Under the pieces are notes generated by a model that was not told the origin of the DNA, did no database searches, and worked only from the letters and a program-made list of their open reading frames with translations. 64,000 nucleotides of DNA from Loxodes magnus. Its lineage: Eukaryota; Ciliophora; Karyorelictea; Loxodida; Loxodidae. Positions 28,801 through 64,000 of the stretch are shown in pieces. Position 1 is the stretch's first letter. Each line of letters starts with the position of its first letter. The translations under genes and the position numbers were made by a program. Location of the stretch: the NCBI GenBank assembly GCA_946699065.1, contig CAMPDV010002087.1, positions 20,280-84,279 of the forward strand, given 5' to 3'.

Positions 28801-29990
28801 CAAAAACAATGCTTTTTTTTACTTTAAAAATTACTCAACTATTTTTCATACATTGTTAACTCACTCTGGTATTAAAATTTTAATTTCTCACTTCAAAACA
28901 TATCAAAAACAATGCTTTTTTTTACTTTAAAAATTACTCAACTATTTTTCATACATTGTTAACTCACTCTGGTATTAAAATTTTAATTTCTCACTTCAAA
29001 ACATATCAAAAACAATGCTTTTTTTTACTTTAAAAATTACTCAACTATTTTTCATACATTGTTAACTCACTCTGGTATTAAAATTTTAATTTCTCACTTC
29101 AAAACATATCAAAAACAATGCTTTTTTTTACTTTAAAAATTACTCAACTATTTTTCATACATTGTTAACTCACTCTGGTATTAAAATTTTAATTTCTCAC
29201 TTCAAAACATATCAAAAACAATGCTTTTTTTTACTTTAAAAATTACTCAACTATTTTTCATACATTGTTAACTCACTCTGGTATAAAAATTTTAATTTCT
29301 CACTTCAAAACATATCAAAAACAATGCTTTTTTTTACTTTAAAAATTACTCAACTATTTTTCATACATTGTTAACTCACTCTGGTATTAAAATTTTAATT
29401 TCTCACTTCAAAACATATCAAAAACAATGCTTTTTTTTACTTTAAAAATTACTCAACTATTTTTCATACATTGTTAACTCACTCTGGTATTAAAATTTTA
29501 ATTTCTCACTTCAAAACATATCAAAAACAATGCTTTTTTTTACTTTAAAAATTACTCAACTATTTTTCATACATTGTTAACTCACTCTGGTATTAAAATT
29601 TTAATTTCTCACTTCAAAACATATCAAAAACAATGCTTTTTTTTACTTTAAAAATTACTCAACTATTTTTCATACATTGTTAACTCACTCTAGTATTAAA
29701 ATTTTAAGTTCTCACTTCAAAACATATCAAAAACAATGCTTTTTTTTACTTTAAAAATTACTCAACTATTTTTCATACATTGTTAACTCACTCTGGTATT
29801 AAAATTAAATATTCTCACTTCAAAACATATCAAAAACAATGCTTTTTTTTACTTTAAAAATTACTCAACTATTTTTCATACATTGTTAACTCACTCTGGT
29901 ATTAAAATTTTAATTTCTCACTTCAAAACATATCAAAAACAATGCTTTTTTTTACTTTAAAAATTACTCAACTATTTTTCATACATTGTT
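19824..29990 (+). repeat. Satellite sub-block 3: recurring HG-E-E-C-D-A-E cassettes
   Basis: HG linkers begin at 22271, 23507, 24537, about 24847, about 25053, 26804 and about 29692; a G linker with the consensus left half begins at 28143. After 22271, 23507, 26804 and 28143 the following units read E-E-C-D-A-E and then three or more A. Steps are 1236 bp (12 units) between the first two and 1339 bp (13 units) between the last two. A unique 'ctccagtatt' linker lies near 20107 and a 104-bp unit ('ttttaatattctc') near 21150. All of the stretch is satellite with no gene. Confidence 0.85.
25686..27520 (+). repeat. Segmental duplication within the array, copy 2
   Basis: This is the counterpart of 15957-17690. 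It has 'ccaaaaac' at 25710, H at 26083, the C26T core near 26133, D at 26493 (410 bp after H, as in copy 1), HG at 26804, then E-E-C-D-A-E. Because three rare variants are shared in the same order and at the same spacing, independent mutation is implausible. The copying event must be younger than those mutations. The extra B unit and the C/E difference show later exchange. Confidence 0.85.
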
Positions 29991-35811: not shown

Positions 35812-38800
35812 ATGCTTTTTTTTACTTTAAAAATTACTCAACTATTTTTCATACATTGTTAACTCACTCTGGTATTAAAATTTTAATTTCTCACTTCAAA
35901 ACATATCAAAAACAATGCTTTTTTTTACTTTAAAAATTACTCAACTATTTTTCATACATTGTTAACTTACTCCAATATTAAAATTAAATATTCTCACTTC
36001 AAAACATATCAAAAACAATGCTTTTTTTTACTTTAAAAATTACTCAACTATTTTTCATACATTGTTAACTCACTCTGGTATTAAAATTTTAATTTCTCAC
36101 TTCAAAACATATCAAAAACAATGCTTTTTTTTACTTTAAAAATTACTCAACTATTTTTCATACATTGTTAACTCACTCTGGTATTAAAATTTTAATTTCT
36201 CACTTCAAAACATATCAAAAACAATGCTTTTTTTTACTTTAAAAATTACTCAACTATTTTTCATACATTGTTAACTCACTCTGGTATTAAAATTTTAATT
36301 TCTCACTTCAAAACATATCAAAAACAATGCTTTTTTTTACTTTAAAAATTACTCAACTATTTTTCATACATTGTTAACTCACTCTGGTATAAAAATTTTA
36401 ATTTCTCACTTCAAAACATATCAAAAACAATGCTTTTTTTTACTTTAAAAATTACTCAACTATTTTTCATACATTGTTAACTCACTCTGGTATTAAAATT
36501 TTAATTTCTCACTTCAAAACATATCAAAAACAATGCTTTTTTTTACTTTAAAAATTACTCAACTATTTTTCATACATTGTTAACTCACTCTGGTATTAAA
36601 ATTTTAATTTCTCACTTCAAAACATATCAAAAACAATGCTTTTTTTTACTTTAAAAATTACTCAACTATTTTTCATACATTGTTAACTCACTCTGGTATA
36701 AAAATTTTAATTTCTCACTTCAAAACATATCAAAAACAATGCTTTTTTTTACTTTAAAAATTACTCAACTATTTTTCATACATTGTTAACTCACTCTGGT
36801 ATTAAAATTTTAATTTCTCACTTCAAAACATATCAAAAACAATGCTTTTTTTTACTTTAAAAATTACTCAACTATTTTTCATACATTGTTAACTCACTCT
36901 GGTATTAAAATTTTAATTTCTCACTTCAAAACATATCAAAAACAATGCTTTTTTTTACTTTAAAAATTACTCAACTATTTTTCATATATTGTTAACTTAC
37001 TCCAATATTAAAATTAAATATTCTCACTTCAAAACATATCAAAAACAATGCTTTTTTTTACTTTAAAAATTACTCAACTATTTTTCATACATTGTTAACT
37101 CACTCTGGTATAAAAATTTTAATTTCTCACTTCAAAACATATCAAAAACAATGCTTTTTTTTACTTTAAAAATTACTCAACTATTTTTCATACATTGTTA
37201 ACTCACTCTGGTATAAAAATTTTAATTTCTCACTTCAAAACATATCAAAAACAATGCTTTTTTTTACTTTAAAAATTACTCAACTATTTTTCATACATTG
37301 TTAACTCACTCTGGTATAAAAATTTAATTTCTCACTTCAAAACATATCAAAAACAATGCTTTTTTTTACTTTAAAAATTACTCAACTATTTTTCATACAT
37401 TGTTAACTCACTCTGGTATTAAAATTTTAATTTCTCACTTCAAAACATATCAAAAACAATGCTTTTTTTTACTTTAAAAATTACTCAACTATTTTTCATA
37501 CATTGTTAACTCACTCTGGTATTAAAATTAAATATTCTCACTTCAAAACATATCAAAAACAATGCTTTTTTTTACTTTAAAAATTACTCAACTATTTTTC
37601 ATACATTGTTAACTCACTCTGGTATTAAAATTTTAATTTCTCACTTCAAAACATATCAAAAACAATGCTTTTTTTTACTTTAAAAATTACTCAACTATTT
37701 TTCATACATTGTTAACTCACTCTGGTATTAAAATTTTAATTTCTCACTTCAAAACATATCAAAAACAATGCTTTTTTTTACTTTAAAAATTACTCAACTA
37801 TTTTTCATACATTGTTAACTCACTCTGGTATTAAAATTTTAATTTCTCACTTCAAAACATATCAAAAACAATGCTTTTTTTTACTTTAAAAATTACTCAA
37901 CTATTTTTCATACATTGTTAACTCACTCTGGTATTAAAATTTTAATTTCTCACTTCAAAACATATCAAAAACAATGCTTTTTTTTACTTTAAAAATTACT
38001 CAACTATTTTTCATACATTGTTAACTCACTCTGGTATTAAAATTTTAATTTCTCACTTCAAAACATATAAAAAACAATGCTTTTTTTTACTTTAAAAATT
38101 ACTCAACTATTTTTCATACATTGTTAACTCACTCTGGTATTAAAATTTTAATTTCTCACTTCAAAACATATCAAAAACAATGCTTTTTTTTACTTTAAAA
38201 ATTACTCAACTATTTTTCATATATTGTTAACTTACTCCAATATTAAAATTAAATATTCTCACTTCAAAACATATCAAAAACAATGCTTTTTTTTACTTTA
38301 AAAATTACTCAACTATTTTTCATACATTGTTAACTCACTCTGGTATTAAAATTTTAATTTCTCACTTCAAAACATATCAAAAACAATGCTTTTTTTTACT
38401 TTAAAAATTACTCAACTATTTTTCATACATTGTTAACTCACTCTGGTATAAAAATTTTAATTTCTCACTTCAAAACACATCAAAAACAATGCTTTTTTTT
38501 ACTTTAAAAATTACTCAACTATTTTTCATACATTGTTAACTCACTCTGGTATTAAAATTTTAATTTCTCACTTCAAAACATATCAAAAACAATGTTTTTT
38601 TTTACTTTAAAAATTACTCAACTATTTTTCATACATTGTTAACTCACTCTGGTATTAAAATTTTAATTTCTCACTTCAAAACATATCAAAAACAATGCTT
38701 TTTTTTACTTTAAAAATTACTCAACTATTTTTCATACATTGTTAACTCACTCTGGTATAAAAATTTAATTTCTCACTTCAAAACATATCAAAAACAATGC

Positions 38801-41800
38801 TTTTTTTTACTTTAAAAATTACTCAACTATTTTTCATACATTGTTAACTCACTCTGGTATTAAAATTTTAATTTCTCACTTCAAAACATATCAAAAACAA
38901 TGCTTTTTTTTACTTTAAAAATTACTCAACTATTTTTCATATATTGTTAACTTACTCCAATATTAAAATTAAATATTCTCACTTCAAAACATATCAAAAA
39001 CAATGCTTTTTTTTACTTTAAAAATTACTCAACTATTTTTCATACATTGTTAACTCACTCTGGTATTAAAATTTTAATTTCTCACTTCAAAACATATCAA
39101 AAACAATGCTTTTTTTTACTTTAAAAATTACTCAACTATTTTTCATACATTGTTAACTCACTCTGGTATAAAAATTTTAATTTCTCACTTCAAAACATAT
39201 CAAAAACAATGCTTTTTTTTACTTTAAAAATTACTCAACTATTTTTCATACATTGTTAACTCACTCTGGTATAAAAATTTTAATTTCTCACTTCAAAACA
39301 TATCAAAAACAATGCTTTTTTTTACTTTAAAAATTACTCAACTATTTTTCATACATTGTTAACTCACTCTGGTATTAAAATTTTAATTTCTCACTTCAAA
39401 ACATATCAAAAACAATGCTTTTTTTTACTTTAAAAATTACTCAACTATTTTTCATACATTGTTAACTCACTCTGGTATTAAAATTTTAATTTCTCACTTC
39501 AAAACATATCAAAAACAATGCTTTTTTTTACTTTAAAAATTACTCAACTATTTTTCATACATTGTTAACTCACTCTGGTATTAAAATTTTAATTTCTCAC
39601 TTCAAAACATATCAAAAACAATGCTTTTTTTTACTTTAAAAATTACTCAACTATTTTTCATATATTGTTAACTTACTCCAATATTAAAATTAAATATTCT
39701 CACTTCAAAACATATCAAAAACAATGCTTTTTTTTACTTTAAAAATTACTCAACTATTTTTCATACATTGTTAACTCACTCTGGTATTAAAATTTTAATT
39801 TCTCACTTCAAAACATATCAAAAACAATGCTTTTTTTTACTTTAAAAATTACTCAACTATTTTTCATACATTGTTAACTCACTCTGGTATTAAAATTAAA
39901 TATTCTCACTTCAAAACATATCAAAAACAATGCTTTTTTTTACTTTAAAAATTACTCAACTATTTTTCATACATTGTTAACTCACTCTGGTATTAAAATT
40001 TTAATTTCTCACTTCAAAACATATCAAAAACAATGCTTTTTTTTACTTTAAAAATTACTCAACTATTTTTCATACATTGTTAACTCACTCTGGTATAAAA
40101 ATTTTAATTTCTCACTTCAAAACACATCAAAAACAATGCTTTTTTTTACTTTAAAAATTACTCAACTATTTTTCATACATTGTTAACTCACTCTGGTATT
40201 AAAATTTTAATTTCTCACTTCAAAACATATCAAAAACAATGCTTTTTTTTACTTTAAAAATTACTCAACTATTTTTCATACATTGTTAACTTACTCCAAT
40301 ATTAAAATTAAATATTCTCACTTCAAAACATATCAAAAACAATGCTTTTTTTTACTTTAAAAATTACTCAACTATTTTTCATACATTGTTAACTCACTCT
40401 GGTATTAAAATTTTAATTTCTCACTTCAAAACATATCAAAAACAATGCTTTTTTTTACTTTAAAAATTACTCAACTATTTTTCATACATTGTTAACTCAC
40501 TCTGGTATAAAAATTTTAATTTCTCACTTCAAAACATATCAAAAACAATGCTTTTTTTTACTTTAAAAATTACTCAACTATTTTTCATACATTGTTAACT
40601 CACTCTGGTATAAAAATTTTAATTTCTCACTTCAAAACATATCAAAAACAATGCTTTTTTTTACTTTAAAAATTACTCAACTATTTTTCATACATTGTTA
40701 ACTCACTCTGGTATTAAAATTTTAATTTCTCACTTCAAAACATATCAAAAACAATGCTTTTTTTTACTTTAAAAATTACTCAACTATTTTTCATACATTG
40801 TTAACTCACTCTGGTATAAAAATTTAATTTCTCACTTCAAAACATATCAAAAACAATGCTTTTTTTTACTTTAAAAATTACTCAACTATTTTTCATACAT
40901 TGTTAACTCACTCTGGTATTAAAATTTTAATTTCTCACTTCAAAACATATCAAAAACAATGCTTTTTTTTACTTTAAAAATTACTCAACTATTTTTCATA
41001 TATTGTTAACTTACTCCAATATTAAAATTAAATATTCTCACTTCAAAACATATCAAAAACAATGCTTTTTTTTACTTTAAAAATTACTCAACTATTTTTC
41101 ATACATTGTTAACTCACTCTGGTATAAAAATTTTAATTTCTCACTTCAAAACACATCAAAAACAATGCTTTTTTTTACTTTAAAAATTACTCAACTATTT
41201 TTCATACATTGTTAACTCACTCTGGTATAAAAATTTTAATTTCTCACTTCAAAACATATCAAAAACAATGCTTTTTTTTACTTTAAAAATTACTCAACTA
41301 TTTTTCATACATTGTTAACTCACTCTGGTATTAAAATTTTAATTTCTCACTTCAAAACATATCAAAAACAATGCTTTTTTTTACTTTAAAAATTACTCAA
41401 CTATTTTTCATACATTGTTAACTCACTCTGGTATAAAAATTTAATTTCTCACTTCAAAACATATCAAAAACAATGCTTTTTTTTACTTTAAAAATTACTC
41501 AACTATTTTTCATACATTGTTAACTCACTCTGGTATTAAAATTTTAATTTCTCACTTCAAAACATATCAAAAACAATGCTTTTTTTTACTTTAAAAATTA
41601 CTCAACTATTTTTCATATATTGTTAACTTACTCCAATATTAAAATTAAATATTCTCACTTCAAAACATATCAAAAACAATGCTTTTTTTTACTTTAAAAA
41701 TTACTCAACTATTTTTCATACATTGTTAACTCACTCTGGTATTAAAATTTTAATTTCTCACTTCAAAACATATCAAAAACAATGCTTTTTTTTACTTTAA

Positions 41801-43839
41801 AAATTACTCAACTATTTTTCATACATTGTTAACTCACTCTGGTATTAAAATTTTAATTTCTCACTTCAAAACATATCAAAAACAATGCTTTTTTTTACTT
41901 TAAAAATTACTCAACTATTTTTCATACATTGTTAACTCACTCTGGTATAAAAATTTAATTTCTCACTTCAAAACATATCAAAAACAATGCTTTTTTTTAC
42001 TTTAAAAATTACTCAACTATTTTTCATACATTGTTAACTCACTCTGGTATTAAAATTTTAATTTCTCACTTCAAAACATATCAAAAACAATGCTTTTTTT
42101 TACTTTAAAAATTACTCAACTATTTTTCATATATTGTTAACTTACTCCAATATTAAAATTAAATATTCTCACTTCAAAACATATCAAAAACAATGCTTTT
42201 TTTTACTTTTAAAAATTACTCAACTATTTTTCATACATTGTTAACTCACTCTGGTATAAAAATTTTAATTTCTCACTTCAAAACATATCAAAAACAATGC
42301 TTTTTTTTACTTTAAAAATTACTCAACTATTTTTCATACATTGTTAACTCACTCTGGTATTAAAATTTTAATTTCTCACTTCAAAACATATCAAAAACAA
42401 TGCTTTTTTTTACTTTAAAAATTACTCAACTATTTTTCATACATTGTTAACTCACTCTGGTATTAAAATTAAATATTCTCACTTCAAAACATATCAAAAA
42501 CAATGCTTTTTTTTACTTTAAAAATTACTCAACTATTTTTCATACATTGTTAACTCACTCTGGTATTAAAATTTTAATTTCTCACTTCAAAACATATCAA
42601 AAACAATGCTTTTTTTTACTTTAAAAATTACTCAACTATTTTTCATACATTGTTAACTCACTCTGGTATTAAAATTTTAATTTCTCACTTCAAAACATAT
42701 CAAAAACAATGCTTTTTTTTACTTTAAAAATTACTCAACTATTTTTCATACATTGTTAACTCACTCTGGTATTAAAATTTTAATTTCTCACTTCAAAACA
42801 TATCAAAAACAATGCTTTTTTTTACTTTAAAAATTACTCAACTATTTTTCATACATTGTTAACTCACTCTGGTATTAAAATTTTAATTTCTCACTTCAAA
42901 ACATATCAAAAACAATGCTTTTTTTTACTTTAAAAATTACTCAACTATTTTTCATACATTGTTAACTTACTCCAATATTAAAATTAAATATTCTCACTTC
43001 AAAACATATCAAAAACAATGCTTTTTTTTACTTTAAAAATTACTCAACTATTTTTCATATATTGTTAACTTACTCCAATATTAAAATTAAATATTCTCAC
43101 TTCAAAACATATCAAAAACAATGCTTTTTTTTACTTTAAAAATTACTCAACTATTTTTCATACATTGTTAACTCACTCTGGTATTAAAATTTTAATTTCT
43201 CACTTCAAAACATATCAAAAACAATGCTTTTTTTTACTTTAAAAATTACTCAACTATTTTTCATACATTGTTAACTCACTCTGGTATTAAAATTTTAATT
43301 TCTCACTTCAAAACATATCAAAAACAATGCTTTTTTTACTTTAAAAATTACTCAACTATTTTTCATACATTGTTAACTCACTCTGGTATTAAAATTAAAT
43401 ATTCTCATTTCAAAACATATCAAAAACAATGCTTTTTTTTACTTTAAAAATTACTCAACTATTTTTCATACATTGTTAACTCACTCTGGTATTAAAATTT
43501 TAATTTCTCACTTCAAAACATATCAAAAACAATGCTTTTTTTTACTTTAAAAATTACTCAACTATTTTTCATACATTGTTAACTCACTCTGGTATTAAAA
43601 TTTTAATTTCTCACTTCAAAACATATCAAAAACAATGCTTTTTTTTACTTTAAAAATTACTCAACTATTTTTCATACATTGTTAACTTACTCCAATATTA
43701 AAATTAAATATTCTCACTTCAAAACATATCAAAAACAATGCTTTTTTTTACTTTAAAAATTACTCAACTATTTTTCATATATTGTTAACTTACTCCAATA
43801 TTAAAATTAAATATTCTCACTTCAAAACATATCAAAAAC
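35812..43839 (+). repeat. Left palindrome arm, outer part (few indels)
   Basis: Alleles include D near 35966, WD near 36991, 38221, 38941, 39661, 41001, 41621 and 42121, and B- near 37317, 38757, 40812, 41429 and 41947. The triplet B-, A, WD occurs as a unit near 38757, 40812, 41429 and 41947 (and again near 47411), so it is a small higher-order cassette. Homopolymer lengths are almost constant: the exceptions I saw are an extra T near 42210 and a 7-T tract near 43331 that is also present in the mirror arm. Only satellite is present. Confidence 0.88.
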
Positions 43840-44403
43840 AATGCTTTTTTTACTTTAAAAATTACTCAACTATTTTTTCATACATTGTTAACTCACTCTG
43901 GTATTAAAATTTTAATTTCTCACTTCAAAAACATATCAAAAACAATGCTTTTTTTTACTTTAAAAATTACTCAACTATTTTTTCATACATTGTTAACTCA
44001 CTCTGGTATTAAAATTTTAATTTCTCACTTCAAAACATATCAAAAACAATGCTTTTTTTACTTTAAAAATTACTCAACTATTTTTCATACATTGTTAACT
44101 CACTCTGGTATTAAAATTAAATATTCTCATTTCAAAACATATCAAAAAACAATGCTTTTTTTTACTTTAAAAATTACTCAACTATTTTTCATACATTGTT
44201 AACTCACTCTGGTATTAAAATTTTAATTTCTCACTTCAAAACATATCAAAAACAATGCTTTTTTTTACTTTAAAAATTACTCAACTATTTTTCATACATT
44301 GTTAACTCACTCTGGTATTAAAATTTTAATTTCTCACTTCAAAACATATCAAAAACAATGCTTTTTTTTACTTTAAAAATTACTCAACTATTTTTCATAC
44401 ATT
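42961..44403 (+). repeat. Tandem duplication of a 7-unit block
   Basis: The linker order D-WD-A-A-C*-A-A at 42961-43680 (720 bp) is repeated immediately at 43681-44403 (723 bp). Each copy carries the C* allele 'ctcattt' preceded by a core whose T8 tract is seven T long. That pairing is rare elsewhere, so the two blocks are sister copies. The mirror arm shows the same doubling around 55.4-56.8 kb, so it was present before the fold-back event or the sequencing chimera. Confidence 0.85.
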
Positions 44404-47400
44404 GTTAACTCACTCTGGTATTAAAATTTTAATTTCTCACTTCAAAACATATCAAAAACAATGCTTTTTTTACTTTAAAAATTACTCAACTATTTTTCAT
44501 ATATTGTTAACTTACTCCAATATTAAAATTAAATATTCTCACTTCAAAACATATCAAAAACAATGCTTTTTTTTACTTTAAAAATTACTCAACTATTTTT
44601 CATACATTGTTAACTCACTCTGGTATTAAAATTTTAATTTCTCACTTCAAAACACATCAAAAACAATGCTTTTTTTTACTTTAAAAATTACTCAACTATT
44701 TTTCATACATTGTTAACTCACTCTGGTATTAAAATTAAATATTCTCACTTCAAAACATATCAAAAACAATGCTTTTTTTTACTTTAAAAATTACTCAACT
44801 ATTTTTCATATATTGTTAACTTACTCCAATATTAAAATTAAATATTCTCACTTCAAAACATATCAAAAACAATGCTTTTTTTTACTTTAAAAATTACTCA
44901 ACTATTTTTCATACATTGTTAACTCACTCTGGTATTAAAATTTTAATTTCTCACTTCAAAACATATCAAAAACAATGCTTTTTTTACTTTAAAAATTACT
45001 CAACTATTTTTCATACATTGTTAACTCACTCTGGTATTAAAATTTTAATTTCTCACTTCAAAACATATCAAAAACAATGCTTTTTTTTACTTTAAAAATT
45101 ACTCAACTATTTTTCATACATTGTTAACTCACTCTGGTATTAAAATTTTAATTTCTCACTTCAAAACATATCAAAAACAATGCTTTTTTTACTTTAAAAA
45201 TTACTCAACTATTTTTCATACATTGTTAACTCACTCTGGTATTAAAATTAAATATTCTCATTTCAAAACATATCAAAAACAATGCTTTTTTTTACTTTAA
45301 AAATTACTCAACTATTTTTCATACATTGTTAACTCACTCTGGTATTAAAATTTTAATTTCTCACTTCAAAACATATCAAAAACAATGCTTTTTTTTACTT
45401 TAAAAATTACTCAACTATTTTTCATACATTGTTAACTCACCTCTGGTATTAAAATTTAATTTCTCACTTCAAAACATATCAAAAACAATGCTTTTTTTTT
45501 ACTTTAAAAATTACTCAACTATTTTTCATACATTGTTAACTCACTCTGGTATTAAAATTTTAATTTCTCACTTCAAAAACATATCAAAAACAATGCTTTT
45601 TTTTACTTTAAAAATTACTCAACTATTTTTCATATATTGTTAACTTACTCCAATATTAAAATTAATATTCTCACTTCAAAACATATCAAAAACAATGCTT
45701 TTTTTTTACTTTAAAAATTACTCAACTATTTTTCATACATTGTTAACTCACTCTGGTATTAAAATTTTAATTTCTCACTTCAAAACACATCAAAAACAAT
45801 GCTTTTTTTTACTTTAAAAAATTACTCAACTATTTTTCATACATTGTTAACTCACTCTGGTATTAAAATTAAATATTCTCACTTCAAAACATATCAAAAA
45901 CAATGCTTTTTTTTACTTTAAAAATTACTCAACTATTTTTCATACATTGTTAACTCACTCTGGTATTAAAATTTTAAGTTCTCACTTCAAAACATATCAA
46001 AAAACAATGCTTTTTTTTACTTTAAAAATTACTCAACTATTTTTCATACATTGTTAACTCACTCTGGTATTAAAATTTTAATTTCTCACTTCAAAACATA
46101 TCAAAAACAATGCTTTTTTTTACTTTAAAAATTACTCAACTATTTTTCATATATTGTTAACTCACTCTGGTATTAAAATTTTAATTTCTCACTTCAAAAA
46201 CATATCAAAAACAATGCTTTTTTTTACTTTAAAAATTACTCAACTATTTTTCATACATTGTTAACTCACTCTGGTATTAAAATTTTAATTTCTCACTTCA
46301 AAACATATCAAAAACAATGCTTTTTTTTACTTTAAAAAATTACTCAACTATTTTTCATACATTGTTAACTCACTCTGGTATTAAAATTAAATATTCTCAC
46401 TTCAAAACATATCAAAAACAATGCTTTTTTTTACTTTAAAAATTACTCAACTATTTTTCATACATTGTTAACTCACTCTGGTATTAAAATTTTAATTTCT
46501 CACTTCAAAAACATATCAAAAACAATGCTTTTTTTTACTTTAAAAATTACTCAACTATTTTTCATACATTGTTAACTCACTCTGGTATAAAATTTTAATT
46601 TCTCACTTCAAAACATATCAAAAACAATGCTTTTTTTTACTTTAAAAATTACTCAACTATTTTTTCATACATTGTTAACTCACTCTGGTATAAAAAATTT
46701 AATTTCTCACTTCAAAACATATCAAAAACAATGCTTTTTTTTACTTTAAAAATTACTCAACTATTTTTCATACATTGTTAACTCACTCTGGTATTAAAAT
46801 TTTAATTTCTCACTTCAAAAACATATCAAAAACAATGCTTTTTTTTACTTTAAAAATTACTCAACTATTTTTCATACATTGTTAACTCACTCTGGTATTA
46901 AAATTAAATATTCTCACTTCAAAACATATCAAAAACAATGCTTTTTTTTACTTTAAAAATTACTCAACTATTTTTCATACATTGTTAACTCACTCTGGTA
47001 TTAAAATTTTAATTTCTCACTTCAAAACATATCAAAAACAATGCTTTTTTTTACTTTAAAAATTACTCAACTATTTTTCATACATTGTTAACTCACTCTG
47101 GTATAAAAATTTTAATTTCTCACTTCAAAACATATCAAAAACAATGCTTTTTTTTTACTTTAAAAATTACTCAACTATTTTTCATACATTGTTAACTCAC
47201 TCTGGTATAAAAATTTTAATTTCTCACTTCAAAAACATATCAAAAACAATGCTTTTTTTTACTTTAAAAATTACTCAACTATTTTTCATACATTGTTAAC
47301 TCACTCTGGTATTAAAATTTTAATTTCTCACTTCAAAACATATCAAAAACAATGCCTTTTTTTTACTTTAAAAATTACTCAACTATTTTTCATACATTGT

Positions 47401-49908: not shown

Positions 49909-49920
49909 ATTTAATACCAG
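49898..49920. other. Palindrome axis (orientation switch point)
   Basis: Eleven bases (49898-49908) are perfectly complementary to eleven (49910-49920) around one central A at 49909, and the complementarity continues outward into the arms. The axis falls inside the monomer's own 14-bp dyad ('attaaaattttaat'), here one T shorter. The last forward unit is cut after about base 94 and passes straight into its own reverse complement with no spacer or foreign base. This geometry fits a strand folding back on the internal dyad. It does not separate in vivo fold-back priming from a library or sequencing chimera. Confidence 0.95.
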
Positions 49921-52900
49921 AGTGAGTTAACAATGTATGAAAAATAGTTGAGTAATTTTTAAAGTAAAAAAAAGCATTGTTTTTGATATGTTTTGAAGTG
50001 AGAAATTAAAATTTTAATACCAGAGTGAGTTAACAATGTATGAAAAATAGTTGAGTAATTTTTAAAGTAAAAAAAAGCATTGTTTTTGATATGTTTTGAA
50101 GTGAGAAATTAAAATTTTAATACCAGAGTGAGTTAACAATGTATGAAAAATAGTTGAGTAATTTTTAAAGTAAAAAAAAGCATTGTTTTTGATATGTTTT
50201 GAAATGGAGAATATTTAATTTTAATACCAGAGTGAGTTAACAATGTATGAAAAATAGTTGAGTAATTTTTAAAGTAAAAAAAAGCATTGTTTTTGATATG
50301 TTTTGAAGTGAGAACTTAAAATTTTAATACCAGAGTGAGTTAACAATGTATGAAAAATAGTTGAGTAATTTTTAAAGTAAAAAAAAGCATTGTTTTTGAT
50401 ATGTTTTGAAGTGAGAAATTAAAATTTTTATACCAGAGTGAGTTAACAATGTATGAAAAATAGTTGAGTAATTTTTAAAGTAAAAAAAAGCATTGTTTTT
50501 GATATGTTTTGAAGTGAGAAATTAAAATTTTTATACCAGAGTGAGTTAACAATGTATGAAAAATAGTTGAGTAATTTTTAAAGTAAAAAAAAGCATTGTT
50601 TTTGATGTGTTTTGAAGTGAGAAATTAAAATTTTTATACCAGAGTAAGTTAACAATGTATGAAAAATAGTTGAGTAATTTTTAAAGTAAAAAAAAGCATT
50701 GTTTTTGATATGTTTTGAAGTGAGAATATTTAATTTTAATATTGGAGTAAGTTAACAATGTATGAAAAATAGTTGAGTAATTTTTAAAGTAAAAAAAAGC
50801 ATTGTTTTTGATATGTTTTGAAGTGAGAAATTAAAATTTTAATATTGGAGTAAGTTAACAATGTATGAAAAATAGTTGAGTAATTTTTAAAGTAAAAAAA
50901 AGCATTGTTTTTGATATGTTTTGAAGTGAGAAATTAAAATTTTAATACCAGAGTGAGTTAACAATGTATGAAAAATAGTTGAGTAATTTTTAAAGTAAAA
51001 AAAAGCATTGTTTTTGATATGTTTTGAAGTGAGAAATTAAAATTTTAATACCAGAGTGAGTTAACAATGTATGAAAAATAGTTGAGTAATTTTTAAAGTA
51101 AAAAAAAGCATTGTTTTTGATATGTTTTGAAGTGAGAAATTAAAATTTTAATACCAGAGTGAGTTAACAATGTATGAAAAATAGTTGAGTAATTTTTAAA
51201 GTAAAAAAAAGCATTGTTTTTGATATGTTTTGAAATGAGAATATTTAATTTTAATACCAGAGTGAGTTAACAATGTATGAAAAATAGTTGAGTAATTTTT
51301 AAAGTAAAAAAAGCATTGTTTTTGATATGTTTTGAAGTGAGAAATTAAAATTTTAATACCAGAGTGAGTTAACAATATATGAAAAATAGTTTGAGTAATT
51401 TTTAAAGTAAAAAAAAGCATTGTTTTTGATATGTTTTGAAGTGAGAAATTAAAATTTTAATACCAGAGTGAGTTAACAATGTATGAAAAATAGTTGAGTA
51501 ATTTTTAAAGTAAAAAAAAGCATTGTTTTTGATATGTTTTGAAGTGAGAAATTAAAATTTTAATACCAGAGTGAGTTAACAATGTATGAAAAATAGTTGA
51601 GTAATTTTTTAAAGTAAAAAAAAGCATTGTTTTTGATATGTTTTGAAGTGAGAATATTTAATTTTAATATTGGAGTAAGTTAACAATATATGAAAAATAG
51701 TTGAGTAATTTTTAAAGTAAAAAAAAGCATTGTTTTTGATATGTTTTGAAGTGAGAAATTAAAATTTTAATACCAGAGTGAGTTAACAATGTATGAAAAA
51801 TAGTTGAGTAATTTTTAAAGTAAAAAAAAGCATTGTTTTTGATATGTTTTGAAGTGAGAACTTAAAATTTTAATACCAGAGTGAGTTAACAATGTATGAA
51901 AAATAGTTGAGTAATTTTTAAAGTAAAAAAAAGCATTGTTTTTGATATGTTTTGAAGTGAGAATATTTAATTTTAATACCAGAGTGAGTTAACAATGTAT
52001 GAAAAATAGTTGAGTAATTTTTAAAGTAAAAAAAAGCATTGTTTTTGATGTGTTTTGAAGTGAGAAATTAAAATTTTTATACCAGAGTGAGTTAACAATG
52101 TATGAAAAATAGTTGAGTAATTTTTAAAGTAAAAAAAAGCATTGTTTTTGATATGTTTTGAAGTGAGAATATTTAATTTTAATATTGGAGTAAGTTAACA
52201 ATATATGAAAAATAGTTGAGTAATTTTTAAAGTAAAAAAAAGCATTGTTTTTGATATGTTTTGAAGTGAGAAATTAAAATTTTAATACCAGAGTGAGTTA
52301 ACAATGTATGAAAAATAGTTGAGTAATTTTTAAAGTAAAAAAAAGCATTGTTTTTGATATGTTTTGAAGTGAGAAATTAAATTTTTATACCAGAGTGAGT
52401 TAACCAATGTATGAAAAATAGTTGAGTAATTTTTAAAGTAAAAAAAAGCATTGTTTTTGATATGTTTTGAAGTGAGAAATTAAAATTTTAATACCAGAGT
52501 GAGTTAACAATGTATGAAAAATAGTTGAGTAATTTTTAAAGTAAAAAAAAGCATTGTTTTTGATATGTTTTGAAGTGAGAAATTAAAATTTTTATACCAG
52601 AGTGAGTTAACAATGTATGAAAAATAGTTGAGTAATTTTTAAAGTAAAAAAAAGCATTGTTTTTGATATGTTTTGAAGTGAGAAATTAAAATTTTTATAC
52701 CAGAGTGAGTTAACAATGTATGAAAAATAGTTGAGTAATTTTTAAAGTAAAAAAAAAGCATTGTTTTTGATATGTTTTGAAGTGAGAAATTAAAATTTTA
52801 ATACCAGAGTGAGTTAACAATGTATGAAAAATAGTTGAGTAATTTTTAAAGTAAAAAAAAGCATTGTTTTTGATATGTTTTGAAGTGAGAATATTTAATT

Positions 52901-55900
52901 TTAATACCAGAGTGAGTTAACAATGTATGAAAAATAGTTGAGTAATTTTTAAAGTAAAAAAAGCATTGTTTTTGATATGTTTTGAAGTGAGAAATTAAAA
53001 TTTTAATACCAGAGTGAGTTAACAATGTATGAAAAATAGTTGAGTAATTTTTAAAGTAAAAAAAAGCATTGTTTTTGATATGTTTTGAAGTGAGAAATTA
53101 AAATTTTTATACCAGAGTGAGTTAACAATGTATGAAAAATAGTTGAGTAATTTTTAAAGTAAAAAAAAGCATTGTTTTTGATATGTTTTGAAGTGAGAAA
53201 TTAAAATTTTTATACCAGAGTGAGTTAACAATGTATGAAAAATAGTTGAGTAATTTTTAAAGTAAAAAAAAGCATTGTTTTTTGATATGTTTTGAAGTGA
53301 GAAATTAAAATTTTAATACCAGAGTGAGTTAACAATGTATGAAAAATAGTTGAGTAATTTTTAAAGTAAAAAAAAGCATTGTTTTTGATATGTTTTGAAG
53401 TGAGAATATTTAATTTTAATACCAGAGTGAGTTAACAATGTATGAAAAATAGTTGAGTAATTTTTAAAGTAAAAAAAAGCATTGTTTTTGATATGTTTTG
53501 AAGTGAGAAATTAAAATTTTAATACCAGAGTGAGTTAACAATGTATGAAAAATAGTTGAGTAATTTTTAAAGTAAAAAAAAGCATTGTTTTTGATATGTT
53601 TTGAAGTGAGAAATTAAAATTTTAATACCAGAGTGAGTTAACAATATATGAAAAATAGTTGAGTAATTTTTAAAGTAAAAAAAAGCATTGTTTTTGATAT
53701 GTTTTGAAGTGAGAAATTAAAATTTTAATACCAGAGTGAGTTAACAATGTATGAAAAATAGTTGAGTAATTTTTAAAGTAAAAAAAGCATTGTTTTTGAT
53801 ATGTTTTGAAGTGAGAACTTAAAATTTTAATACCAGAGTGAGTTAACAATGTATGAAAAATAGTTGAGTAATTTTTAAAGTAAAAAAAAGCATTGTTTTT
53901 GATATGTTTTGAAGTGAGAATATTTAATTTTAATACCAGAGTGAGTTAACAATGTATGAAAAATAGTTGAGTAATTTTTAAAGTAAAAAAAAGCATTGTT
54001 TTTGATGTGTTTTGAAGTGAGAAATTAAAATTTTAATACCAGAGTGAGTTAACAATGTATGAAAAATAGTTGAGTAATTTTTAAAGTAAAAAAAAGCATT
54101 GTTTTTGATATGTTTTGAAGTGAGAATATTTAATTTTAATATTGGAGTAAGTTAACAATATATGAAAAATAGTTGAGTAATTTTTAAAGTAAAAAAAAGC
54201 ATTGTTTTTGATATGTTTTGAAGTGAGAAATTAAAATTTTAATACCAGAGTGAGTTAACAATGTATGAAAAATAGTTGAGTAATTTTTAAAGTAAAAAAA
54301 AGCATTGTTTTTGATATGTTTTTGAAGTGAGAAATTAAAATTTTAATACCAGAGTGAGTTAACAATGTATGAAAAATAGTTGAGTAATTTTTAAAGTAAA
54401 AAAAAGCATTGTTTTTGATATGTTTTGAAGTGAGAAATTAAAATTTTAATACCAGAGTGAGTTAACAATGTATGAAAAATAGTTGAGTAATTTTTAAAGT
54501 AAAAAAAAGCATTGTTTTTGATATGTTTTGAAATGAGAATATTTAATTTTAATACCAGAGTGAGTTAACAATGTATGAAAAATAGTTGAGTAATTTTTAA
54601 AGTAAAAAAAGCATTGTTTTTGATATGTTTTGAAGTGAGAAATTAAAATTTTAATACCAGAGTGAGTTAACAATGTATGAAAAATAGTTGAGTAATTTTT
54701 AAAGTAAAAAAAAGCATTGTTTTTGATATGTTTTGAAGTGAGAAATTAAAATTTTAATACCAGAGTGAGTTAACAATGTATGAAAAATAGTTGAGTAATT
54801 TTTAAGTAAAAAAAAAGCATTGTTTTTGATATGTTTTTGAAGTGAGAAATTAAAATTTTAATACCAGAGTGAGTTAACAATGTATGAAAAATAGTTGAGT
54901 AATTTTTAAAGTAAAAAAAAGCATTGTTTTTGATATGTTTTGAAGTGAGAATATTTAATTTTAATATTGGAGTAAGTTAACAATATATGAAAAATAGTTG
55001 AGTAATTTTTAAAGTAAAAAAAAAGCATTGTTTTTGATATGTTTTGAAGTGAGAATATTTAATTTTAATACCAGAGTGAGTTAACAATGTATGAAAAATA
55101 GTTGAGTAATTTTTAAAGTAAAAAAAAGCATTGTTTTTGATGTGTTTTGAAGTGAGAAATTAAAATTTTAATACCAGAGTGAGTTAACAATGTATGAAAA
55201 ATAGTTGAGTAAATTTTTAAAGTAAAAAAAAGCATTGTTTTTGATATGTTTTGAAGTGAGAATATTTAATTTTAATATTGGAGTAAGTTAACAATATATG
55301 AAAAATAGTTGAGTAATTTTTAAAGTAAAAAAAAAGCATTGTTTTTGATATGTTTTTGAAGTGAGAAATTAAAATTTTAATACCAGAGTGAGTTAACAAT
55401 GTATGAAAAATAGTTGAGTAATTTTTAAAGTAAAAAAAAGCATTGTTTTTGATATGTTTTGAAGTGAGAAATTAAAATTTTAATACCAGAGTGAGTTAAC
55501 AATGTATGAAAAATAGTTGAGTAATTTTTAAAGTAAAAAAAAGCATTGTTTTGATATGTTTTGAAGTGAGAAATTAAAATTTTAATACCAGAGTGAGTTA
55601 ACAATGTATGAAAAATAGTTGAGTAATTTTTAAAGTAAAAAAAAGCATTGTTTTTGATATGTTTTGAAATGAGAATATTTAATTTTAATACCAGAGTGAG
55701 TTAACAATGTATGAAAAATAGTTGAGTAATTTTTAAAGTAAAAAAAGCATTGTTTTTGATATGTTTTGAAGTGAGAAATTAAAATTTTAATACCAGAGTG
55801 AGTTAACAATGTATGAAAAATAGTTGAGTAATTTTTAAAGTAAAAAAAAGCATTGTTTTTTGATATGTTTTGAAGTGAGAAATTAAAATTTTAATACCAG

Positions 55901-58900
55901 AGTGAGTTAACAATGTATGAAAAATAGTTGAGTAATTTTTAAAGTAAAAAAAAGCATTGTTTTTGATATGTTTTGAAGTGAGAATATTTAATTTTAATAT
56001 TGGAGTAAGTTAACAATATATGAAAAATAGTTGAGTAATTTTTAAAGTAAAAAAAAGCATTGTTTTTGATATGTTTTGAAGTGAGAATATTTAATTTTAA
56101 TATTGGAGTAAGTTAACAATGTATGAAAAATAGTTGAGTAATTTTTAAAGTAAAAAAAAGCATTGTTTTTGATATGTTTTGAAGTGAGAAATTAAAATTT
56201 TAATACCAGAGTGAGTTAACAATGTATGAAAAATAGTTGAGTAATTTTTAAAGTAAAAAAAAGCATTGTTTTTGATATGTTTTGAAGTGAGAAATTAAAA
56301 TTTTAATACCAGAGTGAGTTAACAATGTATGAAAAATAGTTGAGTAATTTTTAAAGTAAAAAAAAGCATTGTTTTTGATATGTTTTGAAATGAGAATATT
56401 TAATTTTAATACCAGAGTGAGTTAACAATGTATGAAAAATAGTTGAGTAATTTTTAAAGTAAAAAAAGCATTGTTTTTGATATGTTTTGAAGTGAGAAAT
56501 TAAAATTTTAATACCAGAGTGAGTTAACAATGTATGAAAAATAGTTGAGTAATTTTTAAAGTAAAAAAAAGCATTGTTTTTGATATGTTTTGAAGTGAGA
56601 AATTAAAATTTTAATACCAGAGTGAGTTAACAATGTATGAAAAATAGTTGAGTAATTTTTAAAGTAAAAAAAAGCATTGTTTTTGATATGTTTTGAAGTG
56701 AGAATATTTAATTTTAATATTGGAGTAAGTTAACAATATATGAAAAATAGTTGAGTAATTTTTAAAGTAAAAAAAAGCATTGTTTTTGATATGTTTTGAA
56801 GTGAGAATATTTAATTTTAATATTGGAGTAAGTTAACAATGTATGAAAAATAGTTGAGTAATTTTTAAAGTAAAAAAAAAGCATTGTTTTTGATATGTTT
56901 TGAAGTGAGAAATTAAAATTTTAATACCAGAGTGAGTTAACAATGTATGAAAAATAGTTGAGTAATTTTTAAAGTAAAAAAAAGCATTGTTTTTGATATG
57001 TTTTGAAGTGAGAAATTAAAATTTTAATACCAGAGTGAGTTAACAATGTATGAAAAATAGTTGAGTAATTTTTAAAGTAAAAAAAAGCATTGTTTTTGAT
57101 ATGTTTTGAAGTGAGAAATTAAAATTTTAATACCAGAGTGAGTTAACAATGTATGAAAAATAGTTGAGTAATTTTTAAAGTAAAAAAAAGCATTGTTTTT
57201 GATATGTTTTGAAGTGAGAAATTAAAATTTTAATACCAGAGTGAGTTAACAATGTATGAAAAATAGTTGAGTAATTTTTAAAGTAAAAAAAAGCATTGTT
57301 TTTGATATGTTTTGAAGTGAGAATATTTAATTTTAATACCAGAGTGAGTTAACAATGTATGAAAAATAGTTGAGTAATTTTTAAAGTAAAAAAAAGCATT
57401 GTTTTTGATATGTTTTGAAGTGAGAAATTAAAATTTTAATACCAGAGTGAGTTAACAATGTATGAAAAATAGTTGAGTAATTTTTAAAGTAAAAAAAAAG
57501 CATTGTTTTTGATATGTTTTGAAGTGAGAAATTAAAATTTTTATACCAGAGTGAGTTAACAATGTATGAAAAATAGTTGAGTAATTTTTAAAGTAAAAAA
57601 AAGCATTGTTTTTGATATGTTTTGAAGTGAGAATATTTAATTTTAATATTGGAGTAAGTTAACAATATATGAAAAATAGTTGAGTAATTTTTAAAGTAAA
57701 AAAAAGCATTGTTTTTGATATGTTTTGAAGTGAGAAATTAAAATTTTAATACCAGAGTGAGTTAACAATGTATGAAAAATAGTTGAGTAATTTTTAAAGT
57801 AAAAAAAAGCATTGTTTTTGATATGTTTTTGAAGTGAGAAATTAAATTTTTATACCAGAGTGAGTTAACAATGTATGAAAAATAGTTGAGTAATTTTTAA
57901 AGTAAAAAAAAGCATTGTTTTTGATATGTTTTGAAGTGAGAAATTAAAATTTTAATACCAGAGTGAGTTAACAATGTATGAAAAATAGTTGAGTAATTTT
58001 TAAAGTAAAAAAAAGCATTGTTTTTGATATGTTTTGAAGTGAGAAATTAAAATTTTAATACCAGAGTGAGTTAACAATGTATGAAAAATAGTTGAGTAAT
58101 TTTTAAAGTAAAAAAAAGCATTGTTTTTGATATGTTTTGAAGTGAGAATATTTAATTTTAATATTGGAGTAAGTTAACAATATATGAAAAATAGTTGAGT
58201 AATTTTTAAAGTAAAAAAAAGCATTGTTTTTGATATGTTTTGAAGTGAGAAATTAAAATTTTAATACCAGAGTGAGTTAACAATGTATGAAAAATAGTTG
58301 AGTAATTTTTAAAGTAAAAAAAAGCATTGTTTTTGATATGTTTTGAAGTGAGAAATTAAATTTTTATACCAGAGTGAGTTAACAATGTATGAAAAATAGT
58401 TGAGTAATTTTTAAAGTAAAAAAAAGCATTGTTTTTGATATGTTTTGAAGTGAGAAATTAAAATTTTAATACCAGAGTGAGTTAACAATGTATGAAAAAT
58501 AGTTGAGTAATTTTTAAAGTAAAAAAAAGCATTGTTTTTGATATGTTTTGAAGTGAGAAATTAAAATTTTTTATACCAGAGTGAGTTAACAATGTATGAA
58601 AAATAGTTGAGTAATTTTTAAAGTAAAAAAAAGCATTGTTTTTGATGTGTTTTGAAGTGAGAAATTAAAATTTTTATACCAGAGTGAGTTAACAATGTAT
58701 GAAAAATAGTTGAGTAATTTTTAAAGTAAAAAAAAGCATTGTTTTTGATATGTTTTGAAGTGAGAATATTTAATTTTAATATTGGAGTAAGTTAACAATA
58801 TATGAAAAATAGTTGAGTAATTTTTAAAGTAAAAAAAAGCATTGTTTTTGATATGTTTTGAAGTGAGAAATTAAAATTTTAATACCAGAGTGAGTTAACA

Positions 58901-61900
58901 ATGTATGAAAAATAGTTGAGTAATTTTTAAAGTAAAAAAAAGCATTGTTTTTGATATGTTTTGAAGTGAGAAATTAAATTTTTATACCAGAGTGAGTTAA
59001 CAATGTATGAAAAATAGTTGAGTAATTTTTAAAGTAAAAAAAAGCATTGTTTTTGATATGTTTTGAAGTGAGAAATTAAAATTTTAATACCAGAGTGAGT
59101 TAACAATGTATGAAAAATAGTTGAGTAATTTTTAAAGTAAAAAAAAGCATTGTTTTTGATATGTTTTGAAGTGAGAAATTAAAATTTTTATACCAGAGTG
59201 AGTTAACAATGTATGAAAAATAGTTGAGTAATTTTTAAAGTAAAAAAAAAGCATTGTTTTTGATATGTTTTGAAGTGAGAAATTAAAATTTTTATACCAG
59301 AGTGAGTTAACAATGTATGAAAAATAGTTGAGTAATTTTTAAAGTAAAAAAAAGCATTGTTTTTGATATGTTTTGAAGTGAGAAATTAAAATTTTAATAC
59401 CAGAGTGAGTTAACAATGTATGAAAAATAGTTGAGTAATTTTTAAAGTAAAAAAAAGCATTGTTTTTGATATGTTTTGAAGTGAGAATATTTAATTTTAA
59501 TATTGGAGTAAGTTAACAATGTATGAAAAATAGTTGAGTAATTTTTAAAGTAAAAAAAAGCATTGTTTTTGATATGTTTTGAAGTGAGAAATTAAAATTT
59601 TAATACCAGAGTGAGTTAACAATGTATGAAAAATAGTTGAGTAATTTTTAAAGTAAAAAAAAGCATTGTTTTTGATGTGTTTTGAAGTGAGAAATTAAAA
59701 TTTTTATACCAGAGTGAGTTAACAATGTATGAAAAATAGTTGAGTAATTTTTAAAGTAAAAAAAAGCATTGTTTTTGATATGTTTTGAAGTGAGAAATTA
59801 AAATTTTAATACCAGAGTGAGTTAACAATGTATGAAAAATAGTTGAGTAATTTTTTAAAGTAAAAAAAAGCATTGTTTTTGATATGTTTTGAAGTGAGAA
59901 TATTTAATTTTAATACCAGAGTGAGTTAACAATGTATGAAAAATAGTTGAGTAATTTTTAAAGTAAAAAAAAGCATTGTTTTTGATATGTTTTGAAGTGA
60001 GAAATTAAAATTTTAATACCAGAGTGAGTTAACAATGTATGAAAAATAGTTGAGTAATTTTTAAAGTAAAAAAAAGCATTGTTTTTGATATGTTTTGAAG
60101 TGAGAATATTTAATTTTAATATTGGAGTAAGTTAACAATATATGAAAAATAGTTGAGTAATTTTTAAAGTAAAAAAAAGCATTGTTTTTTGATATGTTTT
60201 GAAGTGAGAAATTAAAATTTTAATACCAGAGTGAGTTAACAATGTATGAAAAATAGTTGAGTAATTTTTAAAGTAAAAAAAAGCATTGTTTTTGATATGT
60301 TTTGAAGTGAGAAATTAAAATTTTAATACCAGAGTGAGTTAACAATGTATGAAAAATAGTTGAGTAATTTTTAAAGTAAAAAAAAGCATTGTTTTTGATA
60401 TGTTTTGAAGTGAGAAATTAAAATTTTAATACCAGAGTGAGTTAACAATGTATGAAAAATAGTTGAGTAATTTTTAAAGTAAAAAAAAGCATTGTTTTTG
60501 ATATGTTTTGAAGTGAGAAATTAAAATTTTTATACCAGAGTGAGTTAACAATGTATGAAAAATAGTTGAGTAATTTTTAAAGTAAAAAAAAGCATTGTTT
60601 TTGATATGTTTTGAAGTGAGAAATTAAAATTTTTATACCAGAGTGAGTTAACAATGTATGAAAAATAGTTGAGTAATTTTTAAAGTAAAAAAAAGCATTG
60701 TTTTTGATATGTTTTGAAGTGAGAAATTAAAATTTTAATACCAGAGTGAGTTAACAATGTATGAAAAATAGTTGAGTAATTTTTAAAGTAAAAAAAAGCA
60801 TTGTTTTTGATATGTTTTGAAGTGAGAATATTTAATTTTAATATTGGAGTAAGTTAACAATATATGAAAAATAGTTGAGTAATTTTTAAAGTAAAAAAAA
60901 GCATTGTTTTTGATATGTTTTGAAGTGAGAAATTAAAATTTTAATACCAGAGTGAGTTAACAATGTATGAAAAATAGTTGAGTAATTTTTAAAGTAAAAA
61001 AAAGCATTGTTTTTGATATGTTTTGAAGTGAGAAATTAAATTTTTATACCAGAGTGAGTTAACAATGTATGAAAAATAGTTGAGTAATTTTTAAAGTAAA
61101 AAAAAGCATTGTTTTTGATATGTTTTGAAGTGAGAAATTAAAATTTTAATACCAGAGTGAGTTAACAATGTATGAAAAATAGTTGAGTAATTTTTAAAGT
61201 AAAAAAAAACATTGTTTTTGATATGTTTTGAAGTGAGAAATTAAAATTTTAATACCAGAGTGAGTTAACAATGTATGAAAAATAGTTGAGTAATTTTTAA
61301 AGTAAAAAAAAGCATTGTTTTTGATGTGTTTTGAAGTGAGAAATTAAAATTTTTATACCAGAGTGAGTTAACAATGTATGAAAAATAGTTGAGTAATTTT
61401 TAAAGTAAAAAAAAAGCATTGTTTTTGATATGTTTTGAAGTGAGAAATTAAAATTTTAATACCAGAGTGAGTTAACAATGTATGAAAAATAGTTGAGTAA
61501 TTTTTAAAGTAAAAAAAAGCATTGTTTTTGATATGTTTTGAAGTGAGAATATTTAATTTTAATATTGGAGTAAGTTAACAATATATGAAAAATAGTTGAG
61601 TAATTTTTAAAGTAAAAAAAAGCATTGTTTTTTGATATGTTTTGAAGTGAGAAATTAAAATTTTAATACCAGAGTGAGTTAACAATGTATGAAAAATAGT
61701 TGAGTAATTTTTAAAGTAAAAAAAAGCATTGTTTTTTATATGTTTTGAAGTGAGAAATTAAAATTTTAATACCAGAGTGAGTTAACAATGTATGAAAAAT
61801 AGTTGAGTAATTTTTAAAGTAAAAAAAAGCATTGTTTTTGATATGTTTTGAAGTGAGAAATTAAAATTTTAATACCAGAGTGAGTTAACAATGTATGAAA

Positions 61901-64000
61901 AATAGTTGAGTAATTTTTAAAGTAAAAAAAAGCATTGTTTTTGATATGTTTTGAAGTGAGAAATTAAAATTTTAATACCAGAGTGAGTTAACAATGTATG
62001 AAAAATAGTTGAGTAATTTTTTAAAGTAAAAAAAAGCATTGTTTTTGATATGTTTTGAAGTGAGAAATTAAAATTTTAATACCAGAGTGAGTTAACAATG
62101 TATGAAAAATAGTTGAGTAATTTTTAAAGTAAAAAAAAGCATTGTTTTTGATATGTTTTGAAGTGAGAAATTAAAATTTTAATACCAGAGTGAGTTAACA
62201 ATGTATGAAAAATAGTTGAGTAATTTTTAAAGTAAAAAAAAGCATTGTTTTTGATATGTTTTGAAGTGAGAATATTTAATTTTAATACCAGAGTGAGTTA
62301 ACAATGTATGAAAAATAGTTGAGTAATTTTTTAAAGTAAAAAAAAGCATTGTTTTTGATATGTTTTGAAGTGAGAAATTAAAATTTTAATACCAGAGTGA
62401 GTTAACAATGTATGAAAAATAGTTGAGTAATTTTTAAAGTAAAAAAAAGCATTGTTTTTGATATGTTTTGAAGTGAGAAATTAAATTTTTATACCAGAGT
62501 GAGTTAACAATGTATGAAAAATAGTTGAGTAATTTTTAAAGTAAAAAAAAGCATTGTTTTTGATATGTTTTGAAGTGAGAAATTAAAATTTTTATACCAG
62601 AGTGAGTTAACAATGTATGAAAAATAGTTGAGTAATTTTTAAAGTAAAAAAAAGCATTGTTTTTGATATGTTTTGAAGTGAGAAATTAAATTTTGTATAC
62701 CAGAGTGAGTTAACAATGTATGAAAAATAGTTGAGTAATTTTTAAAGTAAAAAAAAGCATTGTTTTTGATATGTTTTGAAGTGAGAATATTTAATTTTAA
62801 TATTGGAGTAAGTTAACAATATATGAAAAATAGTTGAGTAATTTTTAAAGTAAAAAAAAGCATTGTTTTTGATATGTTTTGAAGTGAGAAATTAAAATTT
62901 TAATACCAGAGTGAGTTAACAATGTATGAAAAATAGTTGAGTAATTTTTAAAGTAAAAAAAAAGCATTGTTTTTGATATGTTTTGAAGTGAGAAATTAAA
63001 ATTTTAATACCAGAGTGAGTTAACAATGTATGAAAAATAGTTGAGTAATTTTTAAAGTAAAAAAAAGCATTGTTTTTTGATATGTTTTGAAGTGAGAAAT
63101 TAAAATTTTTATACCAGAGTGAGTTAACAATGTATGAAAAATAGTTGAGTAATTTTTAAAGTAAAAAAAAAGCATTGTTTTTGATATGTTTTGAAGTGAG
63201 AAATTAAAATTTTTAATACCAGAGTGAGTTAACAATGTATGAAAAATAGTTGAGTAATTTTTAAAGTAAAAAAAAGCATTGTTTTTGATATGTTTTGAAG
63301 TGAGAAATTAAAATTTTAATACCAGAGTGAGTTAACAATGTATGAAAAATAGTTGAGTAATTTTTAAAGTAAAAAAAAGCATTGTTTTTGATATGTTTTG
63401 AAGTGAGAAATTAAAATTTTTATACCAGAGTGAGTTAACAATGTATGAAAAATAGTTGAGTAATTTTTAAAGTAAAAAAAAGCATTGTTTTTGATATGTT
63501 TTGAAGTGAGAAATTAAAATTTTAATACCAGAGTGAGTTAACAATGTATGAAAAATAGTTGAGTAATTTTTAAAGTAAAAAAAAGCATTGTTTTTGATAT
63601 GTTTTGAAGTGAGAAATTAAAATTTTAATACCAGAGTGAGTTAACAATGTATGAAAAATAGTTGAGTAATTTTTAAAGTAAAAAAAAGCATTGTTTTTGA
63701 TATGTTTTGAAGTGAGAAATTAAAATTTTAATACCAGAGTGAGTTAACAATGTATGAAAAATAGTTGAGTAATTTTTAAAGTAAAAAAAAGCATTGTTTT
63801 TGATATGTTTTGAAGTGAGAATATTTAATTTTAATATTGGAGTAAGTTAACAATGTATGAAAAATAGTTGAGTAATTTTTAAAGTAAAAAAAAAGCATTG
63901 TTTTTGATATGTTTTGAAGTGAGAAATTAAAATTTTAATACCAGAGTGAGTTAACAATGTATGAAAAATAGTTGAGTAATTTTTAAAGTAAAAAAAAGCA
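49910..64000 (-). repeat. Same 103-bp satellite, inverted orientation
   Basis: From the axis onward every unit reads as the reverse complement of the forward monomer ('ccagagtgag', 'gttaac', 'aatgtatg', 'gaagtgag'). About 137 units reach the window end without interruption. The order of unit alleles mirrors that of the left arm. Single-base homopolymer differences are frequent throughout, for example nine A near 56872-56880 and 61209, an extra T near 58566, an extra c near 52404, and a disordered linker near 62690. The equivalent left-arm stretch (about 35.8-43.3 kb) is nearly free of these. No gene or other feature is visible. The array continues beyond 64000. Confidence 0.97.

Follow-up and report, generated by a model that had tools for sequence, protein, structure and literature searches.

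Inverted duplications that arise in a chromosome by fold-back or by breakage-fusion have identical inverted arms with a short spacer between them or none. In satellite DNA, real changes of orientation have been described for Tribolium madens, where the available part of the report recounts conserved inversion sites that were seen on raw HiFi reads (PMC13081366). Sequencing artefacts with mirrored arms have also been described. Fold-back reads make up about 0.55 to 0.6% of ONT genomic reads according to the accessible sections of the Breakinator report (PMC12870357), and the same sections give virtually no fold-back reads for the HiFi set examined, which is one data set and may not be the platform used for the assembly analyzed here. 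Palindromes accounted for 45.8% and 11.8% of two amplified PacBio sets versus 0.5% of an unamplified control in the available text of the Pacasus report (PMC6218980). As far as their accessible text goes, these two reports describe fold-back artefact reads as tangling assembly graphs or harming assemblies (PMC12870357, PMC6218980).

We analyzed a giant mirror palindrome within a satellite array of Loxodes magnus. From its arms, its junction, its position in the contig and a straight version of the same locus, we conclude that the palindrome is probably a fold-back chimera at a contig end and not a feature of the chromosome. Mirror palindromes at contig ends in satellites can pass for macro-dyad symmetries or for breakage-fusion duplications, and three checks bear on them that need no reads: the distance from the axis to the contig end, the density of errors before and after the turn, and the presence of a contig that runs straight through.

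RESULTS

The window, by which we mean the whole stretch of 64,000 nucleotides that was analyzed, is made up of bases 20,280 to 84,279 of contig C2087 (84,279 b), one of 7,843 contigs in an assembly that totals 705.7 Mb, and its right end is the end of C2087. It is a single array of an AT-rich satellite (21% GC) with a 103-bp monomer, and a literature search on this 103-bp AT-rich satellite found no match. The satellite units lie in one direction throughout C2087:1-20,000 and in the window up to 49,908, and they lie in the opposite direction from 49,910 on. The features of the window and the related places in other contigs are collected in Table 1. A single scrambled unit of 148 b at 19741 to 19888 interrupts an otherwise even array, and 23 units in the same order form a direct repeat within the window, in runs that end at 19534 and 30705. 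Overlapping satellite contigs are common in this assembly; the start of C2220 and the end of C6755 share 31 units in order, and the end of C5645 and C5686 share 34.

Table 1. Coordinates of the features of the window and of related sequences in other contigs
Feature	Sequence	Position	Strand	Evidence
Well-supported satellite array, direct units	Window	1..43780	+	Off-modal homopolymer tracts 1/2,111; TRF period 103
Inner left arm, error signature of thin read support	Window	43781..49908	+	Off-modal tracts 39/292; first deviant unit 43,781; 44 events versus C2895 in 44,220-49,883
Stretch common to the window and C2895:1-5666, after which C2895 continues straight	Window	44220..49912	+	54 units in the same order; 0 differences in 3,370 homopolymer-collapsed columns
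Junction (monomer dyad of 14 bp minus one T), axis base 49,909	Window	49898..49920	.	154 perfect bases per side; strongest monomer dyad; same 23 bases in C2375 and C3378
Right arm, mirroring the left arm and reaching the contig end	Window	49910..64000	-	Gapped alignment; off-modal tracts 16/293 and 15/383
Private point variant, mirrored at 61,737	Window	38069..38069	+	Found in both arms
Private point variant, mirrored at 61,209	Window	38595..38595	+	Found in both arms
Same 23-base junction	C2375	64681-64703		Assembly search
Same 23-base junction	C3378	31680-31702		Assembly search
Both-strand match to the C2375 query	C5360	11526-11724		Among the matches listed
Both-strand match to the C2375 query	C5246	18306-18500		Among the matches listed
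Both-strand match to the C2375 query	C1946	71322-71515		Among the matches listed
Both-strand match to the C2375 query	C5464	24100-24274		Among the matches listed

The first-pass annotation had described a palindrome whose right arm repeats the left arm unit by unit in mirror order over at least 14 kb, and we confirmed this observation in the assembled sequence. Base 49,909 is the sole palindrome axis between 49,880 and 49,940 that has more than 4 perfect bases per side. When the left arm was aligned with the reverse complement of the right arm, gaps being allowed, 14,046 of 14,136 columns were identical; the mirror extends over 14.1 kb, and the arms share a run of 98 units with identical alleles, the longest found between them. 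The end of the contig sets the limit of the right arm at 64,000. The alignment held 85 events, namely 84 indels (81 of a single base) and one substitution column that is itself an A/T run shift, and it renders one A-to-C change with a lost T at about 62,690 as a pair of indels. Sixty-five of these 85 events fall within 6.13 kb of the axis. After homopolymers were collapsed, a single event remained in about 8,350 columns, whereas 36 direct-orientation segments of the same array, used as controls and collapsed in the same way, gave 186 edits at best and a median of 227. The two private point variants that had been cited as mirrored are present in both arms. The earlier claim that both arms were copied from a single sequence too recently for divergence was thus upheld, and their stated identity holds once run lengths are set aside; at the level of single bases, the arms do differ by run-length changes. 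An ungapped mirror test returned about 32 to 38% identity at each of 13 axes and was unsuitable, since indels break the register.

Comparisons of unit order place this run among others in the assembly. Between unrelated satellite contigs, the longest runs of identical unit alleles were 4 to 18 units. Longer runs came from shared loci or overlapping contig ends (54 and 29 units with C2895, 31 between C2220 and C6755, and 75 between the arms of C248), and unit order is repeated inside one array for up to 30 units. The run of the right arm with C2895 (23 or 29 units) is shortened, as one error breaks a unit anchor.

The locus is also present in the assembly in a straight version. Contig C2895 (52,491 b) starts at window position 44,220, follows the unit order of the left arm, crosses the window axis with an ordinary monomer, and parts from the window after 49,912. 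All of C2895:1-50,000 is in direct orientation. Compared with C2895 base by base, the left arm showed 44 events and the right arm showed 17, all of them single-base run-length changes except for one A/T shift. The base-level comparison of the left arm used a unit-anchored alignment; plain local alignment took the wrong unit register. Within the stretch shared with C2895, the two arms differ from each other by 59 events. The counts of 44 and 17 nearly sum to 59, and therefore few or no events are common to both arms. On these counts, the two arms look like separate noisy readings of the sequence of C2895. A 2-kb query from C2895 that spans the axis matched only C2895 among the matches listed, with one candidate scored, so that it carries no information on further copies.

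We used homopolymer errors as a signature of read support, scoring five homopolymer tracts of the monomer against their usual length and calling those that deviated off-modal. Errors set in at 43,781, about 6.1 kb ahead of the turn, and their level stays raised to the contig end; the two counts for the right arm in Table 1 refer to 49,910 to 56,038 and 56,039 to 64,000, respectively. Judged by tract scoring rather than by read depth, the support of the axis is unlike that of the rest of the array, with 39/292 off-modal tracts to its left (43,781 to 49,909) and 16/293 to its right versus 1/2,111. Scoring of whole units against an allele list gave the same picture with the same onset, although this list was derived from window 1-43.8 kb and so is biased toward that part. 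Elsewhere, off-modal tracts numbered 4/969 in C2087:1-20,000, 10/1,934 in C2220, 14/971 in C5686, and 0/403 in C6755. The straight contig C2895 had 18/2,403, all of them shorter than usual, and C2895:1-5666 alone had 2/275. In C6764:1-20,000, 38/956 tracts were off-modal (36 lengthened), with no orientation switch in those 20 kb. C6764 is noisy without a switch, and therefore high error density marks thin support, not folding per se. In the folded part of the window, the error pattern is as if one unpolished read closes the contig. A single uniform read does not readily account for the right arm being less noisy than the inner left arm.

The bases at the window axis are those of the monomer's 14-bp dyad, ATTAAAATTTTAAT, minus one T. 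Among the 206 centers of the monomer, this dyad is the strongest, with an arm of 7 bases, and the next best has an arm of 3. We searched the assembly for the fold at this dyad, allowing zero to four free central bases, and found three places, which share an identical 23 bases (Table 1); the full-dyad form, with four T, was absent from the same search. The junctions in C2375 and C3378 are flanked by satellite unit variants different from those in the window. The exact 23-base junction thus recurs amid other unit variants, and therefore folding favors the monomer's 14-bp dyad. A 200-base query from C2375 had both-strand matches of full or nearly full length (85 to 93%), as any palindrome should, in at least four further contigs, and the four given in Table 1 are probably further fold-backs near the same dyad. 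Within C3378:31292-32091, the arms differ by three substitution-like changes and two run-length changes inside 400 b of the axis, in contrast to those of the window. Allele hits in C2375 at 62009 to 62215 and 66969 to 67175 lie about two units off exact mirror positions about its junction, and its arms may therefore be imperfect mirrors. The folds in C2375 and C3378 may be older, real inversions.

The distance from the junction to the contig end was measured in five of the at least nine contigs with a match and was 14,091, 14,230, 13,313, 15,090, and 14,470 b, with a mean of 14.2 kb, a standard deviation of 0.6 kb, and a range of 13.3 to 15.1 kb. Distances like these would result if each contig ran on past its axis for the length of one read or insert. 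The distance to the contig end does not discriminate by itself, because the identical arms of a real palindrome would likewise halt assembly roughly one read length beyond the axis.

Contig-end mirrors were also found in C248 and C5089, both of which fold elsewhere in the monomer than the window does. In C248 (439,355 b), the turn is at about 425,125 and has a spacer of 10 bases; the arms are mirrored over the 14,226 b that remain of the contig, and the 8,550 collapsed columns contain one internal difference. This lone difference lies about 7.6 kb from the axis, where a unit of 103 b in the outer arm is matched by one of 94 b in the inner arm. Off-modal tracts numbered 17/631 in the outer arm versus 3/636 in the inner arm (Fisher p = 0.0013). 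The C248 axis is crossed straight by C4828 and by both arms of C5089. On the side carried by C248, 699/701 columns were identical in C4828 and 1,497/1,503 and 1,495/1,504 in the arms of C5089; in the piece that spans the C248 axis, C4828 matched the two C5089 arms in 1,369/1,372 and 1,366/1,371 columns.

C5089 (38,384 b) turns at about 25,071 with a spacer of 6 bases, which leaves a right arm of 13,311 b before the contig ends. A comparison of its arms over 10 kb gave 6 internal events in 5,976 collapsed columns, and both arms were noisy (17/475 and 40/613 off-modal tracts). A straight contig for the C5089 axis was sought in C4828 and not found there, where the unit order differs. The C248 locus is represented by three assembled versions: folded in C248, straight in C4828, and straight and then folded 7.4 kb further on in C5089. 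The unit order of C4828:22501-26400 parts from that of C5089 about 4.2 kb upstream of the C248 axis, by another haplotype, another copy, or an error.

DISCUSSION

We bring the mirror arms, the contig end, the onset of errors, and the straight contig together because a fold-back read explains all four. The proposed course of events is as follows. A long read from the array, or a very thin set of reads, would have turned in the monomer's 14-bp dyad and continued for about 14 kb as its own reverse complement. In the assembly, the folded read would then have become the last piece of C2087, with the array itself continuing as C2895. A single molecule would be responsible, formed while the library was made or amplified rather than in the organism. 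It could have started by self-priming at a small hairpin with its 3' end at ATTAAAATTT; the last two T of that end would pair with AA across a 3-base loop, AAT, and copying back would leave the A4T3 junction.

The artefact is told from a real palindrome by the weak read support of the folded part, by the contigs that run straight, and by the existence of three versions of the C248 locus. The second part of the palindrome is the reverse complement of the first around a center of one base, and the right arm ends with the contig, nothing unique being assembled beyond it. From the contigs and the tract errors, no independent support for the turn was seen, and the ordinary path exists as C2895. The first-pass annotation had offered either a recent inverted duplication or a fold-back chimera; the premise common to both, that the arms are copies of one sequence, stands, and between the two, the evidence favors the chimera (the straight C2895, the thin-support errors, and a fold that ends with the contig). 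Some observations fit a chimera less well. The same junction, one T short, is found in three contigs, a regularity beyond that of random library noise; C4828 gave no straight path through the C5089 axis; and C6764 is noisy with no fold in its first 20 kb. The virtual absence of fold-back reads from the one HiFi set covered in the available text of PMC12870357 may also count against it.

A real and very recent inverted duplication, present in a single haplotype or a fraction of a pooled sample, with C2895 as the straight haplotype, would account for the identity of the arms through one copying event. The contig would stop one read length past the axis, since identical arms are indistinguishable, in keeping with the contig-end distances of 13.3 to 15.1 kb, and the junction common to three contigs could mark an inversion site that is conserved, like those of Tribolium madens. 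We nevertheless consider this duplication improbable, as a haplotype of normal depth should have been polished, yet the off-modal tracts go from 1/2,111 to 39/292, and a diploid with a single C248 locus would have at most two versions of it, not the three assembled. A pure graph error, in which the assembly path crossed to the reverse strand in the absence of any folded read, is very improbable. The ends of satellite contigs do overlap in this assembly, which points to tangled graphs, but the self-complementary stretch at the turn is only 13 to 14 bases, which is far below a long-read overlap, and the errors start 6.1 kb before the turn.

The folded molecule might instead have been made in cells and caught by a single read, either as somatic or extrachromosomal satellite DNA or as a satellite end that was hairpin-capped after cruciform cutting at the dyad. 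The placement of the axis on the strongest dyad of the monomer (arm of 7 versus 3), the loss of the same one base in three contigs, and the palindromic matches in at least four further contigs would all agree with such an origin. Nothing here tells it from folding in the tube, however, and the turns of C248 and C5089 lie at other points of the monomer and have spacers of 10 and 6 bases, respectively; we regard an origin of this kind as quite unlikely. The wider proposal that the satellite folds back in living cells at the fixed AAAATTTT dyad, losing one tip base and giving rise to real giant palindromes or hairpin-capped molecules in many arrays, is unlikely as well, though it deserves some weight. 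If it were true, the assembler would have followed each palindrome for only one read length, and the 23-base junction of three contigs together with the at least four more palindromic contigs would be the footprint of a sequence-guided inversion. The recurring junction, if real in cells, would be a defined sequence at which satellite palindromes form.

A fold-back chimera, the reading that we prefer, can be set beside the known systems. Like the fold-back artefact reads described in the accessible text of two reports, the palindrome has mirror arms, little or no sequence between them, and no adapter at the turn; it differs in that it lies in a finished contig and that its junction recurs at one satellite dyad (PMC12870357, PMC6218980). 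A chromosomal breakage-fusion duplication differs from the window in that the window locus was also assembled straight and its folded copy is thinly supported. With the macro-dyad symmetries of Tribolium, as the available part of that report presents them, the window shares an orientation switch within a satellite array, arms of many kilobases, and a repeated junction sequence (PMC13081366). In contrast, there are thousands of switch sites in Tribolium, they contain diverged subunits, and they were observed on raw HiFi reads (PMC13081366, from the same portion of its text). The window has arms with mirrored unit order and a straight counterpart, and its junction consists of ordinary monomers minus one T. 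The 23 bases common to three contigs resemble a switch site, but they are the ordinary dyad minus one T, and no diverged unit lies at the window axis. With support judged from the contigs, the window appears to have the features of a fold-back read that can be tested in assembled sequence, together with an orientation switch of the macro-dyad kind.
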